Assembly: GCA_000310025.1 (NCBI GenBank)
Contig: FN649758.1
Location: 1,741,996 to 1,788,721 of the forward strand
Length of the DNA: 46,726 nucleotides
Direction: 5' to 3'
DNA from: Ectocarpus siliculosus
Lineage: Eukaryota; Sar; Phaeophyceae; Ectocarpales; Ectocarpaceae
The translations under genes and the position numbers were made by a program. Each line of letters begins with the position of its first letter. Position 1 is the first letter of the stretch. The notes below the pieces were generated by a model, which worked only from the letters and a program-made list of their open reading frames with translations, made no database searches and was not told where the DNA came from. This document shows positions 1 to 39,269 of this stretch, one piece after another.

Positions 1-35
1 AAAGGAGAGGATATCCGGTACCGTCCTTGTAGGTA

Positions 36-266
36 ATGAGAAAGAGTGGCAGGTACTATTTGGGGACTTGGGCACCTGACACGATTGATGTACGTGCAGT
101 AAGATATATTCCCTTCACGGGAGGAAACAGCATTCTTGGTTGCTGTATGGAGGGGAAGAGAGGGAGACAGTATTTATTGGGAGAGAGGCAGAGGCATGAT
201 AGAAAGGGCGTCTGCGGGAGTTATGCTCTCGCTGTCTTCGCTCGGGCTTTAGGAAAACTAAACTAA
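36..266 (+). other. 76-codon ORF repeated in array units
   Basis: An ATG-initiated frame of 76 codons starts 35 bases into unit 1. It recurs intact at 1215-1445 (identical protein) and 2399-2629 (one Ile to Val change). In unit 4 (from 3581) a C-to-T change makes an early stop. No domain was recognised. It is Arg/Gly-rich with four Cys. Because the DNA of the units is itself nearly identical, conservation of the frame is not evidence of selection. It is probably a chance frame in a satellite, listed because it is the longest ATG frame shared by three units. Confidence 0.2.
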
Positions 267-2660
267 ATGCAATTGGAAAGATAACTGTAAACGTTGAGTT
301 TCGTTTTTCTCCCAGAGCAAAACCATTGTATCGTTTTCATCGTTTGCTGGGACGCCTCGTGTCGACTGATATTGAAAGAAACCCTATTCCAGTAGGTCGG
401 TCTATACGGACAATCGCCAAACCTTCCGCTTCTACGTGGATGAATTCGGCGAGACTAGTCAAGCTACGGAGCAACGCCCGCAGCGAATACCGCCAGCATT
501 GTAGCCTTTAGAGTGTTTGGGGGTACTCCTCGCCCTGGTATACATATTGGATCGATTGCAGCTTTTGCTGGGACGCGTCTCGACTGTCATTGGGAACGTG
601 ACCCGTGGGTCGAACTTGGCTCATTTTTGGAGGGAACTGATGGCGCAGCCAACATATGAGTGCAAGCTCATGGGAGATTTCGAGCGAACGCACGCGTGAA
701 CACTCCGCTGACCGTCACGTGCAACCAAGCGACCTCGTTGGCGAACTCGAGATGTATCGCCAACGTGTCGACGTGTTGAGGTTGACATGATTGGTCAGTG
801 CGAAACATGTCCTAGTGCGTACCACTCGAAAAGGGAGAGGGATCATGATTTGTTGTCGCGACACCACCTACCAAGGTCTTATAAAAACGTGGAGTCAGTG
901 GTTGGCCGTCAAGTCATTTCGGTGGTCCCTCTTGCGCCATAGCGTTCTTCACAGCAAGGCGGATGTATTTGTTCGTCAAGAATTGGATAGAGGTTGTAAT
1001 CAGTGGTCACGTTTCGTTGTGTTCACAGAGTCTTCGCGTGCCAGAGAGAGAAAGTAGCGCACAAACAACGAGCAAGGTGGACACATGGAAGGACCCTAGT
1101 GACTTTGCGAGCCTCAAGAGCTGATAACAAGTAGAGAATACACTGCCACCCACCCACGCCTTTCCTTTCGAAGGCGGCGAAAGGAGAGGATATCCGGTAC
1201 CGTCCTTGTAGGTAATGAGAAAGAGTGGCAGGTACTATTTGGGAACTTGGGCACCTGACACGATTGATGTACGTGCAGTAAGATATATTCCCTTCACGGG
1301 AGGAAACAGCATTCTTGGTTGCTGTATGGAGGGGAAGAGAGGGAGACAGTATTTATTGGGAGAGAGGCAGAGGCATGATAGAAAGGGCGTCTGCGGGAGT
1401 TATGCTCTCGCTGTCTTCGCTCGGGCTTTAGGAAAACTAAACTAAATGCAATTGGAAAGATAACTGTAAACGTTGAGTTTCGTTTGTCTCCCAGAGCAAA
1501 ACCATTGTATCGTTTTCATCGTTTGCTGGGACGCCTCGTGTCGGCTGATATTGAAAGAAACCCTATTCCAGTAGGTCGGTCTATACGGACAATCGCCAAA
1601 CCTTCCGCTTCTACGTGGATGAATTCGGCGAGACTAGTCAAGCTACGGAGCAACGCCCGCAGCGAATACCGCTAGCATTGTAGCCTTTAGAGTGTTTGGG
1701 GGCACTCCTCGCCCTGGTATACATATTGGATCGATTGCAGCTTTTGCTGGGACGCGTCTCGACTGTCATTGGGAACGTGACCCGTGGGTCGAACTTGGCT
1801 CATTTTTGGAGGGAACTGATGGCGCAGCCAACATATGAGTGCAAGCTCATGGAAGATTTCGAGCGAACGCACGCGTGAACACTCCGCTGACCATCACGTG
1901 CAACCAAGCGACCTCGTTGGCGAACTCGAGATGTATCGCCAACGTGTCGACGTGTTGAGGTTGACATGATTGGTCAGTGCGAAACATGTCCTAGTGCGTA
2001 CCACTCGAAAAGGGAGAGGGATCATGATTTGTTGTCGCGACACCACCTACCAAGGTCTTATGAAAACGTGGAGTCAGTGGTTGGCCGTCAAATCATTTCG
2101 GTGGTCCCTCTTGCTCCATAGCGTTCTTCACAGCAAGGCGGATGTATTTGTTCGTCAAGAATTGGATAGAGGTTGTAATCAGTGGTCACGTTTCGTTGTG
2201 TTCACAGAGTCTTCGCGTGCCAGAGAGAGAAAGTAGCGCACAAACAACGAGCAAGGTGGACACATGGAAGGACCCTAGTGACTTTGCGAGCCTCAAGAGC
2301 TGATAAACAGTAGAGAATACATTGATTGCTACCCACCCACGCCTTTCCTTTCGAAGGCGGCGAAAAGGAGAGGATATCCGGTACCGTCCTTGTAGGTAAT
2401 GAGAAAGAGTGGCAGGTACTATTTGGGGACTTGGGCACCTGACACGATTGATGTACGTGCAGTAAGATATGTTCCCTTCACGGGAGGAAACAGCATTCTT
2501 GGTTGCTGTATGGAGGGGAAGAGAGGGAGACAGTATTTATTGGGAGAGAGGCAGAGGCATGATAGAAAGGGCGTCTGCGGGAGTTATGCTCTCGCTGTCT
2601 TTGCGCGGGCTTTAGGAAAACTGAACTAAATGCAATTGGAAAGATAACTGTAAACGTTGA

Positions 2661-2876
2661 GTTTCGTTTGTCTCCCAGAGCAAAACCGTTGTATCGTTTC
2701 ATCGTTTGCTGGGACGCCTCGTGTCGGCTGATATTGAAAGAAACCCTTTTCCAAGTAGAACGGTCTATACGGACAATCGCCAAACCTTCCGCTTCTACGT
2801 GGATGAATTCGGCGATAGACTGGTCAAGCTTAGGAGCAACGCCCGCAGCGAATATCGCCAGCATTGTAGCCTTTAG
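2661..2876 (+). pseudogene. Degenerate coding-like frame in array unit 3
   Basis: In unit 3 only, small indels keep one plus frame open for 71 codons, without an ATG, ending at TAG 2874-2876. It reads through a stretch containing RTVYTDNRQTFRFYVDEFGD. The same DNA in units 1, 2 and 4 is frameshifted. This could be the least decayed trace of a protein gene from which the satellite arose, or chance. No family was recognised. Confidence 0.15.
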
Positions 2877-4500
2877 AGTGTTTGGGGGCACTCCTCACTC
2901 TGGTATACATATTGGATCGATTGCAGCTTTGGCTGGCATGCGTGGTCTCGACTGTCATTGGGAACGTGACCCGTGGGTCGAACTTGGCTCATTTTTGGAG
3001 GGAACTGATGGCGGAGCCAACATATGAGTGCAAGCTCATGGGAGATTTCGAGCGAACGCACGCGTGAACACTCCGCTGACCGTCACGTGCAACCAAGCGA
3101 CCTCGTTGGCCAACTCGAGATGTATCGCCAACTTGTCGACGTGTTCAGGTTGACATGATTGGTCAGTGCGAAACATGTCCTAGTGCGCACTCGAAAAGGG
3201 AGAGGGATCATGATTTGTTGCCGCAACACCACCTACCAAGCTCGAATAAAAATCGTGGAGTCAGTGGTTGGCCGTCAAATCATTTCGGTGGTCCCTCTTG
3301 CTCCATAGCGTTCTTCACAGCAAGGCGGATGTATTTGTTCGTCAAGAATTGGATAGAGGTTGTAATCAGTGGTCACGTTTCGTTGTGTTCACAGAGTCTT
3401 CGCGTGCCAGAGAGAGAAAGTAGCGCACAAACAACGAGCAAGGTGGACACATGGAAGGACCCTAGTGACTTGCGAGCCTCAAGAGCTGATAACAAGTAGA
3501 GAATACATTGCCACCCACCCACGCCTTTCCTTTCGAAGGCGGCGAAAAGGAGAGGATATCCGGTACCGTCCTTGTAGGTAATGAGAAAGAGTGGCAGGTA
3601 CTATTTGGGAACTTGGGCACCTGACACGATTGATGTACGTGCAGTAAGATATATTCCCTTCACGGGAGGAAACAGCATTCTTGGTTGCTGTATGGAGGGG
3701 AAGAGAGGGAGATAGTATTTATTGGGGGAGAGGCAGAGGCATGATAGAAAGGGTGCTGAAAGGTGTCTGCGGGAGTTATGCTCTCGCTGTCTTCGCCCGG
3801 GCTTTAGGAAAACTAAACTAAAATGCAATTGGAAAGATAACTGTAAACGTTGAGTTTCGCTTGTTTCCCAGAGAAAGCCTGGTCTATACGGACAATCGCC
3901 AAACCGTCCGCTTCTACGTGGATGAATTCGGCGAGACTAGTCAAGCTACGGAGCAACGCCCGCAGCGAATACCGCCAGCATTATAGCCTTCGACGTGTTT
4001 AGGGGCGCTCCTCACTCTGGTATACATATTGGATCGATTGCAGCTTCTGCCTGGACACCGCGTCTTGACAGTCATTGGGAACGTGACCCGTGGGTCGAAC
4101 TTGGCTCATTTGAGGGAACTGATGGCGCAGCCAACATATGAGTGCAAGTTCTGGGGTATTCCGAGCGAACGCACGCGTACATGTTTCGCTGACCATCACA
4201 TGCAACCAAGCGACCTCGTTGGCCAACACGAGATGGATCTCCAACGTGTCGACCGACGTGTTCAGGTTGACATGATTGGTCAGTGCGAAACATGTCCTGG
4301 TGCGTACCACTCGAAAAGGGAGAGGGATCATGATTTGTTGTCGCGACACCACCTACCAAGCTCGAATAAAAACGTGGAGTCAGTGGTTGGCCGTCAAATC
4401 ATTTCGGTGGTCCCTCTTGCTCCATAGCGTTCTTCACAGCAAGGCGGATGTATTGTTCGTCCAGAAATGGATAGAGGTTGTGACCAGTGGTTACGGGTGA

Positions 4501-8504: not shown

Positions 8505-11500
8505 TTTAAAGTTTTTACGTATGTTTTAATCGCCTGAAACAACTTTATTGGAAGGGAACACAACAAAAAGACAACAAATAATTAATCATCAGGTCATTGA
8601 AAAATAAAATAGATAAAGCCCCTGCCTTAGTTCCGCCTCCATGAATGGCCGTGAAGAAGGCGGTGCACCACCAGAAGCAGCCCCTCCGCCGCCGTGGGTG
8701 GTGTCGGGGGAAGAGGAGGATGCCATGACGACTGTGTCCGTCTTGAGGTGCACAAATAGCTCCTGTACGTGTGTATAGCGCGCACACAGCAGCAGCAGTT
8801 AGTTTCAGAGAGCAAATGAAAGCGCAAGGAAGGTATGCAGCTAATTAGACACCCTCTCTATTGTTTCGTCATCACATCATCACCTCGCCGAGATCATTTT
8901 TTTTCATGGACGGGAGGATCGCTTCGCATTTATTTTTTTGTGAAGGTAGTTGCACGCGACGGATGCCGGCACTCTAACAGTCAGGCACCTACATAGAGGT
9001 TTGTTTGCAGGAAGCGTCGACTGCTTGATGGCAAGCACCAGGTCGATCAGACATGCATGAAGGCCTTTGGTCCACTGCTCTCTCTACATTACATATCGCT
9101 CCAGAATATATGTAGATTACTTGGTACCGCTGAATGAAGCGGTAGATCAGGTCAATCATTGCATACTTTGTAGCCGCCTGCCACTGCTGCTGCTGCTGTT
9201 TAAATACCTCACCGCACCGATCGAAGATATACATCCGCCTGCTGTCCCAGGTAAAGCTTGGCCCCCATGTTATGAACGCGGGACAGGGTTGCTACCTAAG
9301 AGACACGATTAGATACGGAGTATGCATAGAGCGGCGTGCTCCCCCTTGCGTCCGGTGGTGACATGTCTGTCGGATGAGTGCACTCATTTGCCAGCAAATT
9401 GTGTGTGAATTGCCGCGCACGACTGAAGAAGTCTTTCCACTTTTCGCTGGTGCGATGAAAATATCAATGGTGGCCAGAGACACAACAGACAGACAACCGC
9501 GACACGTGTGGCGGAAGAAGCGGAACCCCTCTCCCCTTCGTGAGCACACACTTGCGATAGGTACAAGGCCTAGAATCCATCACCATGAGACAAATCAAGT
9601 ACTACCGGGACTGGGTTGTTCGCGAGAGCCAGATCTCCTCAGCACACTAAAAAAGATCACGAGAGATGACCACAACCTTTTTCTGTTGCCGCACGGAACG
9701 CCGCATCGATCGGAGGGACAAATAAACGTAGAGAAAGAGCGTGGGCGTTGCAATCTGCGGCCGGCCGGATATCGTTTGACTTGGACTAGCGCTCATCACT
9801 GGGAGATCGCAGCAGGAGAGCTAACTCTCGTGGCCTCTCTTGCCTCTATATCCTTCATCTGTCAGGCCGGCTTGCAGCAGCAGCTACAGCAGTAGGCACT
9901 GTCGCAGGATTCCAGCCATGGATTTTCGATGGCACCCTGTGGCACCACGCCATTTTTCATTTCATTATTTATGAACCTGGTGTGAGCGCAGGCTGTAGCA
10001 ACAACGCAACACCGCGCCCGGCATCGGTGGGCGCCCCACGCAAACACGCAAGGAATTTTACCCTCCGCTACCCCTTAGCCCTCCTCGCTTCACGCACCTG
10101 CTCTGACGATCCGACGACCTAGCTCTGCCCCCTTCTTGATGTGCAGAGCTACAGCAGTAGAGCTCGACCCCAAAAAGAGCGGCAGCGTGAAGATCCCGCT
10201 GCACCCAACACCGATTGCAACAACGGCGCCGGGCTGCTGGGCACCGGCGAGCTCGAGCCAGAGTCAGGCCTCCACAATACTCTCGACCTCTGCCGCGCCG
10301 CTGCCCCTTGCTGTTGAGAATCTGGTTGCTCCCGGTTGGTTGTTGTGTGTGTGAGGGGCGGGGGCTGCAGCAGCAGCAGCATACGTATCCAGTGGGCCGA
10401 AAGATTACACCTGCACAGCCGCACCTGTACAATGCACCTGCAAGAGGCAGAAAAATAAAAAAAGAGAGAGAGCAGGTGGTCGATTGTTCCGTCGTGCCGT
10501 ACAATATTATATACCGGTCGTACATTCAACTTGAACGGTCGAGCACTTGCTTGCCCCCTCCCCCATGTTTTTTCTGTGGGTGGGGGTTTGGGTTGGGGTT
10601 GCCTATTGCAGTTCTGCGTGGAGCACCGCCACGTTGTGTTCAGGCACGCTCGGTACTTTGCGTGCATGTTCCCTTTCTGACACCATGAGAGCTACAGAGG
10701 TACAAGCACGGGGCACACGCACGACACGACGGGTTGTCTCAACAACTAATTCCAACATTCATTCCAACTGAAACATAACAACAGCAGCTATTCGTGGATC
10801 CTAGAGCGTACCACAGCAGGTGTGCGCAGACAAGTGAATGCGTTGTTTGCCAGCAGCAGTAATCAGCAGGTACCGTTCAAAGAGACGAGGCGGAGGAGTC
10901 GTAAATAATTTTACTCAGGCTTGTGTCATTTTAAGAAAAAAAGAAAAGAAAAAAGGCGAGGATGCGGGGATCGATTGGCGGATCGCGGTTCAACAAGAGG
11001 ACATTGGAGAACACATTGAAGTAGCGTAAAAAAATACTCCTGGTATATAAAAGCGGTTGATTGAAGAGTTCCTCCGTTGGTGCTTTAGTCTTGTGCTGTA
11101 AGGCGGCAGCATGATATGATTAGGATGCAAGAAGACACCAACTGCGCAGAAGTCGGTCCGCGTGTGTGTGAAGCTCACTCCCGGATCTTCGAGCTACTGC
11201 ATGGCCGTGGCTCTACTCTAGTTCAACTCCAACATTTTCACCCTACCGTGTGTAACTGGGCGTGCGTATACAGGAGTACCCTGGTGTGCCGTGGCATCGT
11301 GTTTACGTAACAAACTCTCGAACTAGGAGTATAGCCTCTTGTTCGCCCTCTGTATAGAGCTGGTGCTAGGTGAGGAGGTCTGTTTGCCGAGCGAGCCGCG
11401 TGGTCTGAGGGGTTTCAACAGGGGATGTTTTCGTGTTGGAAGCGCTTGTCCATCGCATCTCAATCACTGCGTGGTTTGTTTGCGTGGCGTGACGAAATCA

Positions 11501-13172: not shown

Positions 13173-14744
13173 TCACCACGTGAGCACGATCACGGCTAAA
13201 CAGCCCGCGGTGACAAGGTGGCACACCAGCTTCTTCGCCGAGCTCCACTCCTCCCACGCGGGGTTCCCCTCCACTTTCCCCGCCGGCCAGTTCGCCATCG
13301 CCGCCTCGTACCCCGCCACCTTGTCCACCGCCACCACACCCTCGATCGCGAACGAGCTCTTGCGGACGGGGCCTGCGGAGCCATGCCCGCTACCGCCGGC
13401 GGTGCTGCCGGCGCTGGGCCCGGCAGTGTCCGCGGCGAAACCCCTGAGAGGCGTGCCGAAGACGGACGCGCTCGGCGTGACCCGACTCGGCGTGCCGTAG
13501 ACGGAAGCGCTGGTCGACGTGGAGACAACGCGTTCCGTCACGGGCGTGCCGAACGACAGCTTCGGGTGTGAGGTCACGCGGGGAGTGCTGCAGACGGCAC
13601 CGCCGCCGCCGAAGGCGGCCGCAAACGCGCGTTCTGCCGGCCCCATCGATTCGTCGCGCCCGCCGTCGTTCAAGTGCGGCGTGCCACCGCCGGCACCGGC
13701 ACCGGTGAAGGCACGCCCAAAGCGGTTGTCGCCACTCGCGTCGGCGTCGAGATTGGTAGCTTCGTCTTCCCCGCCGCCACCACCGCCATCTCGCCCCTGA
13801 TCCATGTCCTGCTGAGACCAGGGCAAAACGAGTCCACTTGGTCTCCGCGAGCCGCCACCGACGCCGCTGCCCAACGCCCCGACGCTCGCAACGCTACCGT
13901 GCGCGCTCCCTTGGGCGCTTCCGCCAGCGGCGCTGACGCTCCCACCCCACCCCGATCCGTGGCCGCTGCCGTCCCCAACAGATATGCTGGACACCGCTCG
14001 GTCGAGCTGCTTCAACAACCCCTCTGCCATTCGACCCACCCCGGTCTTCTCCGAATGAGACGAAGTGTCCTGAAGGCCTTTCTCCGCCGTCGCCCCCGCA
14101 TCTCTCGGCTTTGCCACCGGCGGCGGCGGCGGCGGCGGCATCGAAGCCTCCCCTGTATCGCTCCCCTCGTGGCCGAAAGACCCGTTGAGAGCAAGGCTGA
14201 ACTGCTTCCCGATTTCGCCGAGCAGTCCCGCGGGGCTGCTGCTGCCACTCCCACCGGAACTGTCCAGGGTGCCGACAAGCTCCCCGTTCTCGGGGATAGG
14301 CGGCGGCGCCGACTCCGACCCATGACGGCTGCTACCGGGACCGTGCCGGCTACCGGTGCTTGACGAGGACAGGGCGGACAGGCGCCGACCGGCGGTTCCG
14401 TGGCCGCTGCCGCTGCCCCCGCCGCCCGCGCCGTTGCTGTGCCAGCTGAGGCTATGCCCACTGCTTCCGTGGCCGCTTCCCATTCCAACGACGCCGTGTC
14501 CGCTGCCATGCCCGCTGACGTTGCCGTGCCCGCTGCCGCTGCCATGCCCGCTGCTGCCGCAGTTCGTCCCCGCGTTGTGGCGGCTGTTGTTCGCTGCGGA
14601 CGCGAGCGAGTGCGCCGAGGAATCGGGGGTGCCGCTGGCGTTCCTCGAGATAGCCTTCGCGACCATTTTTCGGAGGTTTAGTGGGTCTTCCTTCTTGCCA
14701 GCAGCTTGCCCTTCCTGCACCGCCGTCACTTCGCTCGGCGTCGC
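13173..14744 (-). CDS. FYVE-hydrolase exon 11 (low-complexity C-terminus)
   Basis: 523 codons and a stop at 13173-13175. Acceptor GACGCAG/GCG (an alternative in-frame acceptor lies about 60 bases upstream). The peptide has SGHGSGHG-type repeats, a run of seven Pro, and repeated FGTP/YGTP/STP sites. The last 18 residues are hydrophobic after two Lys. Confidence 0.82.
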   Translation of the reverse strand, partial: ATPSEVTAVQEGQAAGKKEDPLNLRKMVAKAISRNASGTPDSSAHSLASAANNSRHNAGTNCGSSGHGSGSGHGNVSGHGSGHGVVGMGSGHGSSGHSLSWHSNGAGGGGSGSGHGTAGRRLSALSSSSTGSRHGPGSSRHGSESAPPPIPENGELVGTLDSSGGSGSSSPAGLLGEIGKQFSLALNGSFGHEGSDTGEASMPPPPPPPVAKPRDAGATAEKGLQDTSSHSEKTGVGRMAEGLLKQLDRAVSSISVGDGSGHGSGWGGSVSAAGGSAQGSAHGSVASVGALGSGVGGGSRRPSGLVLPWSQQDMDQGRDGGGGGGEDEATNLDADASGDNRFGRAFTGAGAGGGTPHLNDGGRDESMGPAERAFAAAFGGGGAVCSTPRVTSHPKLSFGTPVTERVVSTSTSASVYGTPSRVTPSASVFGTPLRGFAADTAGPSAGSTAGGSGHGSAGPVRKSSFAIEGVVAVDKVAGYEAAMANWPAGKVEGNPAWEEWSSAKKLVCHLVTAGCLAVIVLTW

Positions 14745-17700
14745 CTGCGTCAACACGGTTTGCGAGGGGCGGTGTGCCAGACGAGGGGGTGCGCAAATGT
14801 TTTTCTGGTGGCCTCTCATGTGCGATATCCGCGTGTGCCCACAGCCCATGCATGACCACGGAGCAGGTCCGTCGACACCAAACCGCCGAGCGCATCGCTA
14901 CACGCGTACTGTACGATGGCAGAGAACAGCGCGTACGTTGTAGGCGCGCAAGCACATCAACGTCACGAGTGAAGAGTGCCATGTGGTTTCCATCTGTGAG
15001 GCATGACGTAAACTCGACATCGTCAATGTATCCAGCGGGCCCAAGGACCCGCGCGTCATAACCAAAGCTACCACATTCATACGACCGGGATTCTTGAAAA
15101 AGCGCGGACTACATGACGTCAAGACTTATCCACCCTACGGGGGCGAATCTCGATTAATGTCTTGGCAGTCGCCCGTATCATCGGTCGCATCCCTGAATCG
15201 GAGTATATTCCACGACAAAAGACGTAAACTCGACGTCGTATGTGCCGAGCACGGAGCTTCGCACGCGAACGATGCCCACACTGGCCGACACACGAGCAGA
15301 AAGGCGGGGCGGAGAAATGGCGGCTCCCTACTCGCTATGTGTGCCCCACACCGAGTGTAACGCGAGATATTCCGCCGGAATCAATCAAACAAACAGAGAT
15401 CTGTAACGCGGTGGGGGTTTCGCCTAACAAAAACAATAATGGAAGCGGCCCCGCCATTTTCGTTCTCTTCTTTGTGTACAACCAAGACGTCGGCCGGTTG
15501 TACAAACAACACAAACAGAGAGGGGTGGGGGGGGGTGTACTCATAGTCGTGCATGCCCTGGTCGTTAGACCATTGACCTCGCATCCCTACAAAGCCAGGA
15601 CGGAGCACGCCGGGTTCTCACCGGACCAGGTTCTCACATCACCAACCGCCAAGCGCCGTGAGGTATTGGCGAGTCGCATGAAGGGTGAGCTGCATCCTGC
15701 TAAGGGTATTAGGCATCTTGTGCTTACTTCCTTGCATACGGAATGACGTCTGCGAATGACTGGACATAATTTCTGGTGCTTTCACTTCCAGAGACAATAA
15801 TAAGCACCGTGTAACTGCCTCGAGGGCGCTTGACCATTTTAACACAACGTGGTGCGATCATCCCCGTTGCTTGGAAAAGGGGTTTTCGACCACGCACAAA
15901 ATAACCTACCCCGACCACCAAATAGAGGGGGGGGGGTACATGAACCCGCCGTACCTGATCCACCTTCTTGGTGGAGCGAGGGCTCATCATGCCCGCCGTC
16001 GCGCCCGCGGCCGCCGCCGCCGTAGCCGCCGCCGAAGGGGACGTGTCATCCCGCGGCGAGAAAACGTTCGAAGCCACGTACGACAGCTGGCTGCCTAGTC
16101 GCCGGGCCGTGAAACGGGCGGTAGACTGAACAGGCAGGGGAACGAGGTTACGGAAGAGGAGAGGAAAGGGCTTTGGACCGGTGCCGGGCTCGGGGCGAGT
16201 GGCGGCACTTGAACACTCGCCCCGCGTGTAGTCGAATTGTAGTGTGTGGGCGTGTAGTTCAGTTGTGAGCACGCAAACGTGCTGCAGGGATTGTAGGTGT
16301 ACCTCCTTGGGCTTGTGTACCCTTTTCTTGCCAATAGTGTGCGTGTTCTTTAGATCTTCTGATGGCTTTAGCATTTTTGTGACCACGGGCCGAGTCTTAA
16401 CTAGATTTTGGGATTAGCAACTGACACGAGTTTAATGTGAAGAAAAACAACAACAACAACAACAACAACAATCCTTCACCACGAAAAACGCAACGGGTCA
16501 CTATTAGGACGGTCAAACACGACGCATTTAATCGGTTGGTTTTGAAAAACGTTTTGGGAAGAAACCGCAAGATGTTGCCGGAATAAAACGAGCACGAAGA
16601 GACCAAACAAGCGCTCCTCTGCAGACCTTGCGCTTCCACTGCTCCTTGCTTACCCGGGCCTCCTGGACCCCCTTCTGCGCGGCCGTAAAGACCTCCTCCA
16701 TGCTTCCCTTGTCGTAAACGAGCGCGTGGGTACCCCCGGGTATGACCGCGCTCGTGCAGGACGGTAGCGAGCGCTCGAGCCACTTCGTCGCCGCATACGG
16801 CACCAGCTGGTCCGACCTGTGATAGGAGAGTCGGCAGAGACACGCAGAGTTTGACGGCACGAATCAACCACTGCTGTGCCTGTGCCTGTGTTTCTGCGTG
16901 TTTGGGTTTCTTGTCACTTCCAATGACGCCGCCAAGCAGTGATAACACGCCAGGGTCAGTAGGAAAAACGATTGTTCCCCGATGGCGGACAATAAAACGA
17001 TGCGCGTGTGCATTGTTTCATCGACCACACTACCGTATACCACACAAGATAACACACACCCTGGACAGATTGTCAAAGCTCGATTTCTCAACAGCAGAAA
17101 GAGTCAAAGCCGAAAATGGCGGCATTGAAGCCGTCTCGTCCAGAGCTTTCCAAAAATGAATGGTTGCGTTTATGCATCTTCGTCGTGGCGTAATCCAGCT
17201 TTGAAAATCGGCCTAGTGGCTGTGTCATCTTGTGTGGCATACGGTAACTTGCTGCCCAACGATTGGACGTTATTACGTAGAATAGCGGGGCGACAACATG
17301 TAATCCAAGGTGTGTACAGAAAGCGCGTCCGCAAGCATCTCGGCGTGGATTAGAGTGCAGCCATCACATCACACCAGCAACGTCTTGACATCCAGAGGTG
17401 TGAACGTGCCTACCCTCCTCCATCAGAGTCTCGCCTACCGAGTCGGGGATACTTCTGAAATATAGATACAATCGAAGAAAAGAGCAACCGTTCAAAAAAA
17501 AGAAAAATAACCATTGACTAATCCATCTGCTGCAAGGCCGCTACGTGGAGATCACGCGGCTCGGGCGCTTCCGTACTTGCACGAGCACGGCCATACGCGC
17601 GTGCTGGTGGACGACAAAAAAAGGGGTATGGAGGCGGAGGGGAAGCAACGACACTAGCAGCCCCTCGCACCCCAACGCTACTGACAACAACAGCAACAAA

Positions 17701-20700
17701 CACAAGACGACGACGACGACGACAAGACGACAACAAAAAGCAACGACAAGACGACGACAATTATCGATGAACCGCACCTTCCGTGCCATATCTTGACGGG
17801 GTGGATGACCCCCGTACACCGCTCCATGGCCTCTTCCGGCCCCTTGTTGTGCAGGGCAAGAAATACCTCGTTCTTGATGGACCCCTTCCCTTCCTTAAGG
17901 CCGGACACGTGTTTGATCAGGTCCTGATGCGGAGAACGGGGGGGCAAGGAGAGGGACAACACGCAGCGGTGAAACAAACGCTGTGTCTGCGATAGAGACT
18001 CCACACCTCAATGCACAAGGGCATGGGGATTGCGTCTCCCAAAGCAATGAATCGAGTCATGCAATACCGTGTGCCCGCTTCAATGGCATACCTTTATCTT
18101 GCAGCGTACAACACGGAGGCCTTGCGCGCGTATAAGTCATACAGTAAGACGGATAGTAGGCCAAAAACGGGGGGAGGGGGGGGGTTCGTAGCAAGGGAGA
18201 CAGCAACACTCTTCTATGCCTATTTTACAACCTGTATTATGTTTAGTGGGACCTGGCGCATGCTTGCGTTGGCACGTAAAGCGATCTCCTGCAGCTCTCT
18301 CACGAGAGGGGAGGAGGCGGACACAGACATGGTAAGGCGATTACACGCAGTGCACAAATCGAGCACATACAAGCTAGAGCAAGGATATTCCAACCTACTT
18401 TTCGACTTGACAAGCATGACCTGCCGTGTGCCGTGGTCGCTGTCCAGTGCATGATATGTCGGTGGACTGGACAACCAAAAGCAGCAGGAAAAAAAAAAAA
18501 AAACATCACCTCTTTTTCGGTCCAAGAGGATATTGTTACTCCGGTAACCAAGTATGGCTGTTTGTATTTCGTAAGGGTGACTGGCTGTGCGTGTGCCGTT
18601 CCCTTTGCTCGGGGAAGCTCTCGAAAAGAAGGCGCTTCAAGGAAACCGCGTGAACCAAAAAGAAAAACGGCATGGTGGCCGCAAGACACACATCGTATCG
18701 GAAAACACAAACAAGTACTAATGAAAAGGGTGCCTTCGGGTACCCCAACATAACCTTTCGAGGCAAACGGAGTACATCGAAAAGAAATACCCTGGAGGAC
18801 ACAGACGGGTTCTTCATGGCGGGAAGCAAATAAACATACTTAAGTATACTTCTATCACCTGCGTGTACGGTGCCTCCAAGTAGCCCTTCTCCACCTCGCT
18901 GGCCCCGCTAGACCCCCTCGCCATGTCCCCAACTTGCTTCACCATCATCTCGCCGCCGAGACGGCCGACGGTGCTCGTCAGCGCCGGCATAGAGGACGCC
19001 TTCTGGAGGAAGGTGTTGCACCCTTTCGAAGCGGCAAGGGAAGGGAAGGGACCGGGCGGAAACAGACGGGAAAAAAGAGGTAAAGAGACACCGTTGGCAA
19101 AGACAACACAGACAGACAGAAGCAAGACGCACAGATACAAAGACACGCAAACAGACGGAATGGAGACAAGTCTGGGATGAAAGCGAAGCATCACACTCGT
19201 AGCGGGAGTCGTCACCGCTTACGAGGCCAGGCCGCAGATGAACCCTAGGTAGGCTTCCACAACGTGCGTCCCGCTCAAAAACAACAGGAAAAAAAAAATG
19301 AAACAAGAGACAAAAAAACATGTTCAGAAGCTTGCAGAGGAGAGGCGGGCGCAGGCTCAACAACAGTGCGGTAGATGACACAGGATACCACTCCCAACGA
19401 AGCTACCACACCCCCTGCACACTACTCAAGAATGCCACATCAGGTGGTAGTTTCGCTCCGGCTCAGAATGCACCCCAACCATGAAAAAAGCATCACCCCC
19501 ACACATTCGGATCAGGTATTACGGTGATATCACACGAAAGACGATAATGCCGAAGGCACCCCGCATCGTTTGGAATATTTAGGCTATTTAGTCGCTTGGA
19601 GACATATTTATCACCGACGCGCGTTATCTTGCGTCACCTACGGGGCTAATCTGATTCAGAGTCCGACTTGTGTGAACTATTTGTACCTATGGGCTATATG
19701 CTGATACTCCGTATAGAGTCGTACGTGCCACATAAACAAGTGGTTACCGTGTTGTCTCATGTCACCTACGGGGCAAATCTGATTCAGAATCCACTTGTGT
19801 GTTAACTACCGACGTGCCATGTATCCTGATACTCGGTACAGAATCGAACCCGCCATAGAAGGTGTTTCCCACCACTGCGGTGGTGCAGGATGTGCGTTCG
19901 TGCTTACCTCTAGCTGCCAGCGGTACCCACGGCGACACCAGGCACACCGTAGTGCCTTCGAAGACGTCCTTCAGCTCCTCATTTCGGGCGCAGTCCATCG
20001 CGAACACCGCCCCGACCGACTGCCCCACCATTGCCGCCTTCCCTATCCGCAGCTTTGCGCACAGCTGCCGACACAACAGACGGCGCACGCACAGAGAATG
20101 AAGACTTACGTCGTGAAGCACGGGTTAGCTTTGTTCGCTTTACACCCGTCGGCCAACCTGCTCTCTGCTGCCAGGGAAAGTCGCATCACACGAGGGTAAA
20201 CAGGGGCACCACATCGGGAGGCGCAAGGAAAGCACCAGACGCAGCTCCACCTCTGTCTGAATGATTGCTGTCCCTAGCATTGCAAATACTCCCAAGGAAA
20301 CCACAAGTGGTACTGTTGCATTTATGTTCTCCGCCGTCTGGGGGAAAGTCACAAGTGGTTGGAACCATGGCTGAAGCAGACACCGAGTGAAAACGTGGTG
20401 TGAATAATTCTTGTAAGTACCCCAACCTTGTGTGCCCAGCTCTGAAAGCTAGGATAACCAGCTACGAGCACGCAAACTGAATCACCAACCGACCGCGATT
20501 TCCTTCGGGCACGGGACCAAAACGTCGCTGGACCATGCCTGCTGGAACGCTAGATCCTAGAGTGACCAATGCACGACACACCCGAGAGAATACACTAAAC
20601 AGAAAAGCTCTATGCAAAGATAGGTGCGCATTCTCGACTGAACGCAATGCCGTGTCTCGACAATGCACGCAAACAGCCAGATATGCCGAAGATTTCCGTA

Positions 20701-23486
20701 GGAATTCCGCAGCCCCTTCGAGCCTACAAAAGAGCAGCGCCGAAAAAGACAAAATTCACAAAAGCTTCACCCGCGCAAAAACTTCAATTCAATATGCAAA
20801 GCCGAAGGCACACACCACGCCGCCCCCGGCCGGCCCTCCGCGATAAAACTGCTCGCCTGCTTGATCGTGTCGACCACGGCGGCTTCCGTCGCTTCCGTTA
20901 TCAAGCCCTGAACGTCCACCTCGGCCCCCGCCTCGGCATCGACCTCCGGGACAGGTATGGGATCGGAGCGTCCCCTCCCGGGCCTGTCGATGCAGATCAG
21001 CTGCAGGCCCCGGCGGCGAGCGATGTCCTCGAAGTGGGCGGCCGAGTGCCTGTGAGAGTCGAGGCCCTGCGACAACGACCAACAGGAGGAGGTGACGACA
21101 ACGTGGGGTTGAGAAAAAAATGAGGGGTTTTTATGCCCGCGCGCGTTAACTGCGCCGCCGTCGTGCGCGGTCACGAGGGCATTGAGAAAACATCATTCCA
21201 TGTATGTAGATACACAAAAGGTAGAGTCACCGTCACGATTTCTCGCGCACGCGTGCATCACAGGAAAATAACAACCGAGGTATTCTCGGAGATGATATCT
21301 TGCGTGTGACCCCGGCTTTGCGACACCAGCTGAGGGAGAGAACGCCTAATAAACGTGATCCGAAACCGTCGGCAGGTACACACCGAAGACAATACCTGTC
21401 CAGTCCGAGACGACAAAAAAAACGCAAAAAAAAAACGGATGCTGTGCTGTAACTCCCACGCATCCCCGCCTTCCCCGCGTGGCTCGCCCATGCCCCGGTG
21501 CCACCCCAACGCTCCACGTTCGCCAACAGCTCGTCCCGCGCGAGCGAACTGGTCGATTCTGGCTACGGTTTAAGACACGTCTGGGACAAGCCAACAACAC
21601 TCTCTTAGATCCGGCGTTCTCTTAAAATAATAACTTCATCTCTGAAGCCGTAGCCGCGAGATACGATAGTCGTTTCGCGCCCTTACCAGGAACAGGAAGA
21701 CCGGAAGTCCGTCCGGAACCCCGGCGACGGAGTAGCTGACAGTCTTGCCGTCGGCCCGGACGAAACTGCGGTTGTAGCGCTCCTCCTGTCAGGGGGGGGG
21801 GGGGGTGCGCAACGCGATACGCGATGGTGTGGCGACGCCAGGAGGCGGGCAGCGGAAAAAAACACATCGCGTAAGGCGCACGGGCGGCAACTCGTGCTTG
21901 TTGTCCGGGGCGGAGGAAACAAGCAAGACCCTGCCTTTGCCAAGCAAAATAACAATCACGAGCGCGTTGGTAAGAGACCCCGCGGCGTTTGTTCTTTATC
22001 CCGAGCACCTAATAAAAAAAGAGCGCTGCGTACCACACCAACGGCGTGGGATCCCTTGCCCACTTGTGGTCACCGATGGCGAGGTTAACCAACCCGCCGC
22101 ATACCCCAACCGACTCCCCACCCAGCCAAGACCATGGCAACGCGACCCTCACCTCAATGAGCGAAAACAGAGCAGACTTGCGGACGCCTCCGGCGCCAGC
22201 GGCGCCAGCGGCGCCAGCCGCGGCCCGGTCGTCGTTGGAGGGCAGGCCAAGTCCGGACATCTTCCTCCCTATCCGGTCCCAGCACAGCAAGCACGTCCGG
22301 TCCCCTCTGATGCGCTTCGAGGAACAATCGTCGCACGTCACCCTCCCGCACGTCCTGGGCGCGTCCGTTCGTGGGACGAGAACGGCGGCAGAAGCAGCAC
22401 AAAGCGGGTGTTAAGCTGCGCGATACGGCACTTCAATGCTCACACAAACACCAGGCATACCTTTTTCGCTTCTAGTAATGACGTGTGTTGGTCAATCCGC
22501 ACGCGTGAATTCGGGCAGGAGGACAGAGAGCTTGGACCCGGCATCAGGTGTAGTGAAGTAAGTCTTGGCGACAACTATCAACGTCGACGAACGCCACACG
22601 ACGACAATATTTCCCACAACGCTTGACGCAAGATAAACAAGCGGGGCGAACATCCCTAACGCTTATCCCAACTTCCCCGATTGCATGCATGTTTCCGAAA
22701 ACCTGCGAATGCTACTGAGCCTTCCCTACGAGGGGGGGGGGGGGGGGGGGGGGGGAAAAAAAAACCAACCTTCGGATTTTTTTTCCCAAAATTTTCCCAA
22801 GGGGCCCCCCCCCCAATTTGAACCCCCCTTTGGGACCCTAGGGGGAAAACCGGGGGGAGGGGGGGGGGCCCCGGGGGGCCCCCTTGAAAAAAACCCCCCC
22901 CCTGGGGGGGGGCCCAACCCGGGACCCGGGAAAACCCCCCTTTGACCCCCAACATTTGGGGGCCATGTTCCCCGGCCCCCCAANNNNNNNNNNNNNNNNN
23001 NNNNNNNNNNNNNNNNNNNNNNNNNNNNNNNNNNNNNNNNNNNNNNNNNNNNNNNNNNNNNNNNNNNNNNNNNNNNNNNNNNNCCCCCTACGGGGGGGGG
23101 GGGGGGGGGGGGGGGGCGATTAAACGACCAAGCTTCGGATTTGTTTCGTCAACATCTTCCCGAGGCGCCTCTCCCCGACTTTGACACGTCTCTTGAGCAT
23201 CTAGTGTAGTACACGGTGGCATGCGTGCGTGCCGCGTGCGGCACTCTTGAGATAACACACCTACCTGCAGTGGTGCCGACGCCTGTACACGGCGAACTCC
23301 GCCTTGCACACGCAGCAGTTGGGCGCCATGTCGTCCGGCACCCACATCGAAGCGTCCACCGAGGAAGAGCCCATGGGTCCCCTCACAGACTGCGATTTGC
23401 TGGTTGGGCCAGGAAAAAAAAAATAAATGGCAGGATAAGTTACTGTTAGGAAAACGTGTCAGCGATGCCACCACCGTCGAAATTAC

Positions 23487-23518
<32 letters not shown>

Positions 23519-25680
23519 ATGTTCACCTTCGAAATGATTGCACGTGGTGCTACCAACCAAAACAACCCGAAAGGGCCATGACCACAGCAGCAAGTCGACA
23601 TCCTGGCCTTTTCTACGTCGTCCAAATCGACCCCGGCGCCCCACAGATGTGATGTAGATTTGTATGGCTTCAACCATGTTCAACGAGACGTGTTTAAAAC
23701 TCTTGTCGTATAACCCGGCCTCGAGAATTTCCGTGTTTGTCGATATCCGTATTATTTGAACGCTGGTATTCTACACAGGTCTTGGAAGAGGTAATGCAGG
23801 AGCGGTACTTGCCGTGTCCGGTTGCTCTGCTGAGCTTACGGCAGGACAAAATCAAGACCTGGCGTGACACGAAATGATTCCCTAAGCGCGCCCCCTTTGT
23901 TAAAGCGAGAAAAAGGTTCACCAGTTCCCCTCGCCACCGTCAAGACCGCCGAGCCACCCCCCCCTACGCCACCGTCCTTTTTATGGACCGTCTGGTAAGC
24001 CGGCGTCCATTGTCCGCAACGGCCGGGAAAGCTCTACCTTCCTCAGCGACAAGAAGCGCCGGTGAAGGGACACGCAATCCAGACACAGCAACAAAGACCC
24101 GAAACCTTTGGTATCTTGGTAGAATACCAGGAGGACGGACACCCGGCACAGCTTGTTTGCCGACAGCTGTCTAACTGACGCGGGGAGACTTTCCTCTTGG
24201 CGCCTTTCCTGCTAAGCGCAGGAGACATCGTCCCAGCTACGGTAGGTAGCCGGGCACCGCTTGGCGACGGGGGCTGCTGGCATGCTTGTCGCCCTTCGCC
24301 TCCTCCTTCCGTTTTCCCGCTGACAAAAACACTTGTAAAACCGCTGTGTGAGACCCAGCAGTTTCTTCCACCAGGGGTAGGGGCAACGGGGGCGCCCGTT
24401 AGCTGGACTCTAGCCTTGCCATGCCGCGGCAAGGGCAAGTGTCAAGGGGGTCGGTCCGCCGCACCGAGCGGGGGCGCGCCTGCTGCACCTACCCCAGGTG
24501 CCAGAAACCGCTGGGTGACACGGGGTTGACGAAGGTTTTCAGCGCGAAGATAAAGGGCGACAAAGAAGGCTACTGCTGTAGCGTAGCGCCCCCGTCGTCA
24601 AGCGGCGTGCGCCGACAATCATTTCAAGCTATTATAGTAAAAGACCGCAGTTTTTCATCCCCGGCCGATGGTGTTGACGTGTGTAGGCCCTTTGAGATTG
24701 CGGCTCGTCTCACGGGAATTGGATATTTTCCACGGTATTCGTCAAGTCTTGTTCGATTTTCAGTACTGTTCGATACCAAGCGTCACCACGGTTAAGTCAG
24801 TTTCTTCCAAAACCTTGTAACGAACGTTTTGACCGCCGGGAGGGGAGGAGAGTTCATGTACAATAAGATGTAGGTCTCGGGAGATGAGATGACCGAGAGA
24901 CGGCAGAGCAGATGGCCAGTTAAATTACTTGCTGCCGGGGGGAGAGAGCTGTGTGGATGATGTACATCATGTATGCCTATCAACAACAAGAAATTCAGAT
25001 TACCTCGGACGACACATGAACCATGACCCTGCATGTACATACATGTGCATATGCATATGACATGATGGTGCACAATGGCAGTCATGTGCCCATCTCACGT
25101 GAATAGGACGCATGTGCTGATGCGGCTCTACGTTTGGGTTTAGCTGCTCCGTCTTGTGCGGTTACGTTACGCTAACGCATGTTTCCTGCTGTCCACCGAG
25201 CACCAGCAGGACAGAAGAAGCTTAAGCAGTCTCTGAGTTACAGGAGGATGTATCTGTACGGCAGCGTCTCGCAAGCACCTTTGTACAATGTTGTACAAGG
25301 GAGAACCCTCGGTTTTGAGAGGCCCCCTCATGACGAAAGTATGATGCAACCTTTGACGGGAGGCACCGAACAACACCAGCAGTGACACCTTGACAATACT
25401 TCCCCCGCCCCCCCAACGGGAGTAATAATATATCTCGCCCAACGCCGCTACCATATTCGTTTGAATAGGCGTGTTTCACTTACCCTGTGGACATATTAGT
25501 CTGGCGGCGTCGAGGGGTTGCTGCAACCGGGGAGCTGAAGCCGATGCTTCTTCCCGCTGCCCCGAGATTCTCGTCCCCGCCGCTGTTGCTTCGCCTGGGT
25601 GCCCTCGTGGGAAGCTTATGCAGCTGCGCCGGCCCGTCCTCCGTGGGAGCCGGCCCCTCTTCACCCCCCTCGTGCTCCAT
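13173..25680 (-). CDS. FYVE-finger / alpha-beta hydrolase fusion protein (11 exons, 1080 aa)
   Basis: Spliced from 25680-25484, 23399-23265, 22354-22153, 21785-21687, 21066-20857, 20064-19908, 19022-18859, 17923-17778, 16816-16627, 16125-15955 and 14744-13173; all phases agree. FYVE domain about residues 85-137: W85xxD88, RRHHCR at 106-111, and eight zinc ligands (C94, C97, C110, C113, C118, C121, C132, C135). The loop before the last CxxC is short. An Ala/Gly linker leads to an alpha/beta-hydrolase fold, about 180-490, with nucleophile S297 in GQSVG, Asp439 in GRSDQLVP and His467 in GGTHALVYD. Residues 558-1080 are Ser/Gly/His-rich, with a Pro run and four x-T-P sites, ending in KK plus 18 hydrophobic residues. 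Known: FYVE fingers bind PI3P on endosomes. Inferred: a lipase or esterase held at such membranes; the substrate is unknown. Start chosen as ATG 25680, after a GA-rich leader. One assembly gap lies in intron 2. Confidence 0.88.
14745..15954 (-). other. Intron 10 of the FYVE-hydrolase gene
   Basis: 1210 bp with GT-AG ends. Short frames only. Poly(G) runs lie near 15525 and 15928. Confidence 0.7.
15955..16125 (-). CDS. FYVE-hydrolase exon 10
   Basis: 57 codons, phase 0. Acceptor CTGTTCAG/TCT, donor GATCAG/GTACGG. It is Ala/Ser-rich linker sequence. Confidence 0.78.
16446..16471. repeat. (AAC)n microsatellite in intron 9
   Basis: About eight AAC units. Confidence 0.93.
16627..16816 (-). CDS. 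FYVE-hydrolase exon 9 (Asp and His)
   Basis: Acceptor ATCACAG/G. It encodes SDQLVPYAATKWLE with Asp439 and GGTHALVYD with His467. The donor used is AAG/GTCTGC, a weak site but in phase with exon 10. If it were not used, the frame would run on to a stop at 16528-16530. Confidence 0.83.
17033..17244 (+). mobile_element. TA-flanked MITE, copy B (FYVE gene intron 8)
   Basis: A 212 bp element with TA at 17031-17032 and 17245-17246. The left end CCGTATACCACACAAGATAA and the complement of the right end, CCGTATGCCACACAAGATGA, are inverted repeats that continue to GATTGTCAAAGCTCG. The core GTCTCGTCCAGAGCTTTCC matches copies A and C. There is no coding capacity. Confidence 0.87.
17778..17923 (-). CDS. 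FYVE-hydrolase exon 8
   Basis: Acceptor GCATCAG/GAC, donor GGAAG/GTGCGG, phase 2. It ends with VIHPVKIWHG, the strand leading to the catalytic Asp. Confidence 0.9.
18859..19022 (-). CDS. FYVE-hydrolase exon 7
   Basis: Acceptor CGAAAG/GG, donor ACGCAG/GTGATA. It encodes the cap or lid region, rich in helices, residues 334-388. Confidence 0.87.
19634..19870. repeat. 128 bp diverged tandem pair in intron 6
   Basis: TCACCTACGGGGC(T/A)AATCTGATTCAGA is found at 19634 and 19762, followed in both by CTTGTGTG, GTGCC and GATACTC(C/G)GTA blocks. On the minus strand GGGTTCGATTCTG (about 19840-19852) fits a tRNA-type B box. This may be the remains of a tRNA-derived retroposon. Confidence 0.6.
19908..20064 (-). 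CDS. FYVE-hydrolase exon 6 (nucleophile elbow)
   Basis: Acceptor TCGGCAG/CTG, donor CTAGAG/GTAAGC, phase 1. It encodes KAAMVGQSVGAVFAMD with the catalytic Ser297. Confidence 0.93.
20857..21066 (-). CDS. FYVE-hydrolase exon 5 (GC donor)
   Basis: 70 codons, phase 0. It continues directly from exon 4 as FLFL-GLDSHRH and carries LICIDRPGRGRSD, the conserved strand-4 segment. The donor that keeps the fold and frame is CAG/GCGAGC, a GC-AG intron. The nearest downstream GT sites do not keep the frame. Confidence 0.85.
21687..21785 (-). CDS. FYVE-hydrolase exon 4
   Basis: 33 codons, phase 0 at both ends. Acceptor TGACAG/GAG, donor TCCTG/GTAAGG. It encodes the first strands of the hydrolase fold (DGKTVSYSVAG and LPVFLFL). 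Confidence 0.9.
22153..22354 (-). CDS. FYVE-hydrolase exon 3 (second half of FYVE)
   Basis: Acceptor GCCCAG/GACG, donor TTGAG/GTGAGG, phase 0. It supplies the remaining six zinc ligands except C94/C97 and C110 (C113, C118, C121, C132, C135), then an Ala/Gly linker encoded by GGCGCC repeats. Confidence 0.93.
22732..22983. other. Poly(G) run and stuttered sequence before gap 1
   Basis: A G24 run is followed by sequence made almost only of doubled and extended homopolymers. Its order of bases follows the clean sequence after the gap: ACC-AA-CTTCGGATTT at 22765-22780 matches ACCAAGCTTCGGATTT at 23127-23142, and so on to CCCTAG against ATCTAG. This is the pattern of polymerase slippage in reads past a poly(G) tract. 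It should not be annotated as genomic sequence. Confidence 0.85.
22984..23083. other. Assembly gap 1 (100 N)
   Basis: Exactly 100 N, the conventional unknown-size gap, in intron 2 of the FYVE gene. The flanking pattern suggests the two sides overlap. Confidence 0.99.
23265..23399 (-). CDS. FYVE-hydrolase exon 2 (first half of FYVE)
   Basis: The acceptor follows a T-rich tract (…CCAACCAG/C) and the donor is TGCAG/GTAGGT. It encodes residues 66-111, including WVPDD, C94, C97 and RRHHC. The split Arg111 codon (AG/G) joins exactly onto exon 3. Confidence 0.92.
23489..23518. repeat. (CTG)10 microsatellite in intron 1
   Basis: Ten perfect CTG units. Confidence 0.95.
24251..24615. repeat. ~365 bp imperfect inverted repeat (foldback) in intron 1
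   Basis: The left arm (about 24251-24419) and the complement of the right arm (24615-24428) share in the same order GCACCGCTTGGCGACGGGGGC / GCACGCCGCTTGACGACGGGGGC, CTTGTCGCCCTT / TTTGTCGCCCTT, CGCTGA, CCACCAGGGGTAGG / GCACCTGGGGTAGG and a central CTTGCC palindrome. Both arms can encode a similar peptide, PTPG(G/A)RN.WV, read outward. The element may be a foldback transposon or a degenerate pair of inverted gene fragments, and could form a long hairpin RNA. Confidence 0.65.
25484..25680 (-). CDS. FYVE-hydrolase exon 1 (start)
   Basis: ATG at 25680-25678, residues 1-65 plus two bases of codon 66. The donor is GG/GTAAGTG, a near-perfect site, phase 2. The peptide is acidic at first (MEHEGGEEGPAPTEDGP), then basic and Ser/Arg-rich. 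The frame is open further upstream to 25893, so an earlier start cannot be excluded. The purine-rich leader and the join to exon 2 favour this one. Confidence 0.72.
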
Positions 25681-35653: not shown

Positions 35654-35855
35654 CAAGGTCGGAACATTTCGATCTTTTTTTTTCTATTTGTCTGATTATG
35701 GAGGCGTTTTGCATGCCCGGGGACAATAGGAAAATTCAAGTGACAATTCCCCGGCTTGGCTGCGTGCGTTTTGGGGGCGCTTGCGTGCACCCCCAGCTTT
35801 CAGTCCGCTGTCTACTACCTCTATCCTCTTTTCTAAACCTTCCGATATCGTAAAA

Positions 35856-39269
<3,414 letters not shown>

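Follow-up and report, generated by a model that had tools for sequence, protein, structure and literature searches.

A predicted Ectocarpus siliculosus protein combining a FYVE finger with an alpha/beta hydrolase domain and a hydrophobic C-terminus

Conceptual splicing of 11 exons on the minus strand (25680-13173) of a 46,726-nucleotide stretch of the Ectocarpus siliculosus genome, in the following called the window, yielded a single frame of 1071 amino acids with zero internal stops. The frame contains a FYVE finger followed by an alpha/beta hydrolase domain, both with their characteristic motifs, the three residues of a catalytic triad, and a hydrophobic end. With somewhat better than even confidence we read this as one intron-rich gene, whose product would consist of a low-complexity N-terminus, a FYVE finger recruited by PI3P, an alpha/beta hydrolase of the Abhydrolase_1/Hydrolase_4 type, a linker of approximately 550 residues and the hydrophobic C-terminus. 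The protein is best read as a PI3P-recruited serine esterase or lipase, perhaps tail-anchored. If real, it would tie a serine hydrolase directly to the PI3P signal within a single polypeptide, and enzyme placement and membrane identity would become testable together. Knowledge of either single domain is unchanged by the fusion.

The exons are summarized in Table 1. A preliminary description made from the same DNA had proposed eleven exons in consistent phase within a single frame, and this splicing was reproduced. The length of 1080 residues given there was shortened by 9 residues, due to a different end of exon 9. Two donors were found at this exon, GTAAGC at 16653 and, 27 bases further downstream, GTCTGC, which is used when the exon ends at 16627. 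As GTAAGC, judged by eye, is closer to the usual donor, the end at 16654 is preferred, with 16627 as a possible one. Nine of the 10 introns are of the GT-AG type and one, following position 20857, is GC-AG. For exon 5, a GT donor with extension of the exon to 20812 was tried and rejected. All three hydrolase scores fell, for Hydrolase_4 from 43.3 to 36.4 bits and for Abhydrolase_1 to 24.8 bits, which is under its Pfam cut-off of 25.8, and the extension would insert residues immediately ahead of the nucleophile elbow, a place at which the exon of an unfused paralogue on contig C12 (see below) is continuous. The GC-AG intron was therefore preferred over the only GT alternative tried. An optional exon of 36 bases between exons 7 and 8 was left undecided by the Pfam scores (Hydrolase_4 43.3 bits with and 43.2 bits without it). 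At codon position 3 the GC content of exons 2 to 9 (n = 8) ranged from 0.79 to 0.89. Exon 1, with the donor gtaagtga and a phase 2 junction to exon 2, is the least certain exon of the model, since it comes without homology evidence. Exon 7 probably provides the lid of the hydrolase. The intron splitting the FYVE finger contains an assembly gap (N, 22984-23083), surrounded by C runs and unusual low-complexity flanks (window 22720-23120). Within exon 9, 49 bases (window 16664-16712) are identical to C33:3938788-3938836; the 9.9 kb around this match contained no further DNA matches to the window at 1e-10.

Table 1. Exons of the predicted FYVE-hydrolase gene (positions in the window).
Feature	Position	Strand	Content
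Exon 1	25484..25680	-	Start codon and low-complexity N-terminus (residues 1-66); GC at third positions 0.71
Exon 2	23265..23399	-	N-terminal half of FYVE finger with WVPD, RRHHC and the first Cys pair; Pfam FYVE at 85-128 of the spliced protein
Exon 3	22153..22354	-	C-terminal half of FYVE finger with RTC and Cys pairs, followed by a linker that ends ...FSLIE; phmmer match to the ZFYVE16 FYVE finger
Exon 4	21687..21785	-	First strands of the alpha/beta hydrolase; C12 paralogue homologous from the exon start
Exon 5	20857..21066	-	GLDSHRH and DRPGRGRSDP motifs; GC donor; C12 paralogue similarity across exons 4-5
Exon 6	19908..20064	-	Nucleophile elbow GQSVG with Ser297
Exon 7	18859..19022	-	Middle of the hydrolase; in phase; within the Hydrolase_4 match
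Optional 36-base exon EIALRANASMRQ	18253..18288	-	In phase, AG and GT flanks; GC at third positions 0.67
Exon 8	17778..17923	-	Ends ...PVKIWHG; PDB 9wlv alignment spans the exon 8/9 joint
Exon 9	16654..16816	-	SDQLVP (Asp439) and THAL (His467)
Exon 10	15955..16125	-	Beginning of the long low-complexity linker
Exon 11	13173..14744 (stop codon included)	-	Gly/Ser/Ala-rich linker, C-terminal hydrophobic segment, stop

A domain search of the spliced protein (Pfam, residues 1-548), one of the checks suggested in the preliminary description, found FYVE followed by hydrolase families, all above their curated cut-offs. Judged by E-value, both domains lie far outside chance expectation. The FYVE match (PF01363, residues 85-128) reached an E-value of 2.5e-13 and 50.4 bits (cut-off 27.8) and covers profile positions 2-45 of 67 only. 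At the position of exon 2 the finger was also detected in a genome-wide profile scan (E 4.2e-4). WVPD, RRHHCR and RTC (V replaced by T compared to RVC) are present in the translation. The eight zinc ligands announced earlier along with RRHHCR are all there, as eight Cys in four C-x2-C pairs (94/97, 110/113, 118/121, 132/135). Using phmmer, the closest solved structure was the FYVE finger of ZFYVE16 (3t7l; 58 residues, E 1.5e-12), and those of RUFY1 and EEA1 matched as well. All three share WxxD, RRHHCR, R-x-C and the eight Cys ligands with the Ectocarpus finger, whose C6-C7 loop is shorter than in FYVE proteins of this type, by 6 residues in the alignment with ZFYVE16. None of the three is known to carry an alpha/beta hydrolase. 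The hallmarks of the PI3P pocket of FYVE fingers are WxxD, R(R/K)HHCR and RVC (survey excerpt, PMC2837644), and from this motif set binding of PI3P by the Ectocarpus finger is predicted.

For the hydrolase part, three families were found, Hydrolase_4 (residues 207-473, E 3.8e-11, 43.2 bits, cut-off 27), Abhydrolase_1 (E 1.6e-8, 35 bits, cut-off 25.8) and Abhydrolase_6 (E 2.3e-7, 32.1 bits, cut-off 26.3), each within residues 1-548. The motifs DRPGRGRSDP, GQSVG, SDQLVP and THAL were identified, and the triad residues S297, D439 and H467 follow each other in the expected order, with exactly the numbering reported before. The best solved relative (E 2e-7) is PDB 9wlv, a 290-residue chain with the name pimeloyl-ACP methyl ester carboxylesterase. 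Its catalytic Asp and His align with those of the Ectocarpus domain and both share an RPGxGxS motif. Catalysis by the hydrolase is likely. The fold had been called lipase-like. The profile matches above cut-off place the domain in the alpha/beta hydrolase superfamily and predict its fold; however, no lipase family was among the Pfam matches at E 0.1 for residues 1-548 or exon 11, and the 10 NCBIfam families found at E up to 0.1 (RutD and others) include none near its cut-off and no lipase above cut-off. As Hydrolase_4, Abhydrolase_1 and Abhydrolase_6 are broad families, "lipase" is only one possibility among several.

Finger and hydrolase probably belong to one gene. Exon 4, the first hydrolase exon, contains no Met, and an in-frame stop is located 2 codons upstream of it, so that the hydrolase needs an upstream exon. 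The nearest exon seen upstream that fits in phase and has good splice sites is exon 3 with the end of the finger, which makes a single gene likely. We consider it improbable that there are two genes, with exons 1-3 encoding a small FYVE protein of their own and the hydrolase starting independently at the exon 3 ATG past the finger or in an unseen exon. An in-frame Met is indeed present in exon 3 after the finger, and the nearest relative of the hydrolase in the genome, at C12:1676578-1682100, is unfused and has its own ATG. Against two genes stand the FYVE frame, which is not closed by a stop before the donor, the splice sites and phase, which fit on both sides, and the fact that the sole start seen near the hydrolase sits inside a FYVE exon. 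The C12 paralogue is 41% identical over 75 amino acids across exons 4-5 and shares GxSxG and the RPGxGxS motif with the hydrolase of the fusion, but no FYVE finger was detected in 15.4 kb of real sequence around it (19.8 kb minus 4.4 kb of N, downstream; best matches E 0.23 and 0.30), and its first exon alone matched no Pfam family. In BLAST the alignment enters exon 3 by two residues, neither of which is identical (0/2). Its homology reaches back no further than the beginning of exon 4, and the paralogue gives no support for the joint of exons 3 and 4.

The C-terminal part is of different character. Residues 501-1050 comprise 106 Gly, 88 Ser and 70 Ala in 550 positions. The last 19 residues (1053-1071) have a Kyte-Doolittle mean of 1.86, where 1.6 is the usual threshold for a membrane span. 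Windows of 19 residues reaching 1.6 were found only three times, overlapping and all at the C-terminal end. This is hydrophobic enough for the membrane anchor considered possible before, and the segment may be a tail anchor. When 400 sequences were simulated with a Markov model of this region, 9 contained at least 570 open codons in one of six frames, so the length of the C-terminal open frame is weak evidence by itself. Exon 11 alone matched no Pfam family at E 0.1. A partial copy of the 3' end of the gene and its flank was found at C216:14271-19746. It matches pieces of the window between 10922 and 16628 with about 93% identity and contains exons 10 and 11, frameshifted. On C216, of which 29.4 of 47.8 kb were covered, neither finger nor hydrolase was found. 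The best FYVE match there (E 0.023) was a gapped alignment of 55 residues that lacked the motifs. The only good match of the hydrolase query (9.5e-5) was exon 10, the one piece also given for this contig by the whole-genome protein search.

Divergence from this copy is 6.5% in exon 10, 4.2% in exon 11, 13.3% and 11.4% in the intron stretches on either side of exon 10, and 3.0% in the 3' flank. Exon 11 itself is uneven. Over its first 305 bases the divergence is 9.3%, near the intron value, and over the remainder 3.0%, which equals that of the 3' flank beyond the gene; low divergence in exon 11 need therefore not mean constraint. The dN/dS ratio of exon 10 was 0.37 and that of exon 11 was 0.52. 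Pooling both exons, 30 synonymous changes at 439 sites were counted versus 44 nonsynonymous ones at 1274 sites (Fisher p 0.004). The comparison supports a coding exon 11 to a moderate degree, since the values for the flank and the first part of the exon show that uneven similarity has non-coding causes. We consider it improbable that exon 11 was wrongly joined, in which case the protein would end soon past the hydrolase, and the Gly/Ser/Ala-rich frame with its hydrophobic end would be a chance frame or part of another gene. The simulated frame lengths, the missing Pfam families, the 1210 bases of intron 10 and the divergence pattern just described would fit such an error. A dN/dS of about 0.5 and the gaps of exon 11, 4 of 5 being multiples of three despite the frameshifted state of the C216 copy, speak for the exon as part of the gene.

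In the favored reading of a PI3P-recruited serine esterase or lipase, the finger would bind PI3P and so recruit the enzyme to endosomal or autophagic membranes. There the Ser-Asp-His triad would cleave an ester bond, probably one in a lipid. The C-terminal segment may also enter a membrane as a tail anchor. If so, the protein would have two membrane attachments with about 550 probably flexible residues between them, and could either work in cis or connect two organelles. A less probable, though not negligible, reading accepts the fusion and assigns the hydrolase a substrate other than membrane lipids (a small ester, a peptide or a thioester) or a role as protein-binding scaffold, the finger serving only for its placement. 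The broad families matched and the carboxylesterase 9wlv as best solved relative are in agreement with this, as are the NCBIfam matches far under their cut-offs. Moreover, such hydrolases commonly have an HG motif before the oxyanion hole, and here Leu stands in place of its His (LFLGLDS). On the other hand, all triad residues are present, and the finger would set the enzyme on lipid membranes.

A tail-anchored enzyme of membrane contact sites is an elaboration which we regard as quite unlikely. Its span would reside in the membrane of a first organelle, for example the ER, the linker would cross the gap, and the finger would dock in trans on PI3P of an endosome or autophagosome. Editing of partner-membrane lipids by the hydrolase would then be confined to sites where the membranes meet. 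Proteins joining a phosphoinositide reader with a membrane anchor were termed "transmembrane membrane readers", with protrudin (ZFYVE27) as the only human FYVE example counted in the part of the source available (PMC9692390). As proposed for the Ectocarpus protein, protrudin combines reader and anchor in a single protein; according to the same excerpt it differs by four N-terminal spans, PIP2/PIP3 as ligands and the lack of an enzyme domain (PMC9692390).

Fusion of FYVE with an alpha/beta hydrolase is not new in kind, as seen from excerpts of two publications and from a second locus in the same genome. In Table 1 of a 2010 survey, Abhydrolase_3 and Lipase_GDSL are among the catalytic domains associated with FYVE (PMC2837644, table excerpt). 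These proteins have FYVE with an alpha/beta or GDSL hydrolase in common with the Ectocarpus fusion, but the Pfam families differ. Lipase class 3 in tandem with FYVE was noted in sequences called archaeal (PMC9324892, excerpt). Among the literature matches listed, the exact order of FYVE followed by Abhydrolase_1/Hydrolase_4 was not found, and the portions available of PMC8409312, PMC8163842, PMC8233823 and PMC10912746 contain nothing on a FYVE-hydrolase combination. The order had been called unfamiliar. This stands for the exact order among those matches, but the novelty is smaller than suggested, given the FYVE proteins with Abhydrolase_3 or Lipase_GDSL (PMC2837644, in part) and Lipase_3 in the same genome. 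As far as the literature matches tell, the hydrolase family and the C-terminal segment are new here, a novelty we rate as moderate. The protein would combine well-known domains in a new way and would not represent a novel class of system. Searches of viral contigs gave 1 pattern match for the hydrolase and 7 for FYVE, none confirmed, and those of genome contigs 68 for the hydrolase, again none confirmed; both sets cover viruses and prokaryotes and say little about eukaryotes.

The genome-wide profile scan (189 Mb, 492 contigs) found 18 FYVE places versus 71 places for Hydrolase_4, Abhydrolase_1 or Lipase_3, some counted under two families. Within 20 kb, FYVE and one of these three hydrolase families were paired on the same strand on contig C17 only, and on opposite strands on C51. 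The scan was insensitive: the hydrolase of the window itself was missed under Hydrolase_4 and Abhydrolase_1. On C17 (C17:48551-58003) a Lipase_3 place lies between two FYVE places, C17:57866 and C17:48551, all on one strand (FYVE 1.6e-14, Lipase_3 6.4e-19, FYVE 4.9e-11; the pieces were joined by eye and the locus is partly assembled). This FYVE-Lipase_3-FYVE arrangement is probably one gene ending in the second finger. Like the FYVE-hydrolase gene, it combines FYVE and a Ser hydrolase of the alpha/beta fold on one strand; it differs by the hydrolase family, by having two fingers and by the second finger as its end. If the FYVE-hydrolase gene is real, both loci together suggest that fusions of FYVE fingers with alpha/beta hydrolases arose on more than one occasion in the lineage.

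No Rfam family was found, and 2 of 20 long open frames scanned contained a total of 3 families. Repeats with a spacing of about 1.18 kb (from match coordinates) occupy window 1-4500 and are also present at C216:3300-7251 with 86-95% identity. Next to the partial copy of the 3' end on C216, 9.3 kb of other sequence precede the next stretch that matches the window (10581-10923). On the plus strand, window 35730-38023 carries exons of a glyceraldehyde 3-phosphate dehydrogenase gene.
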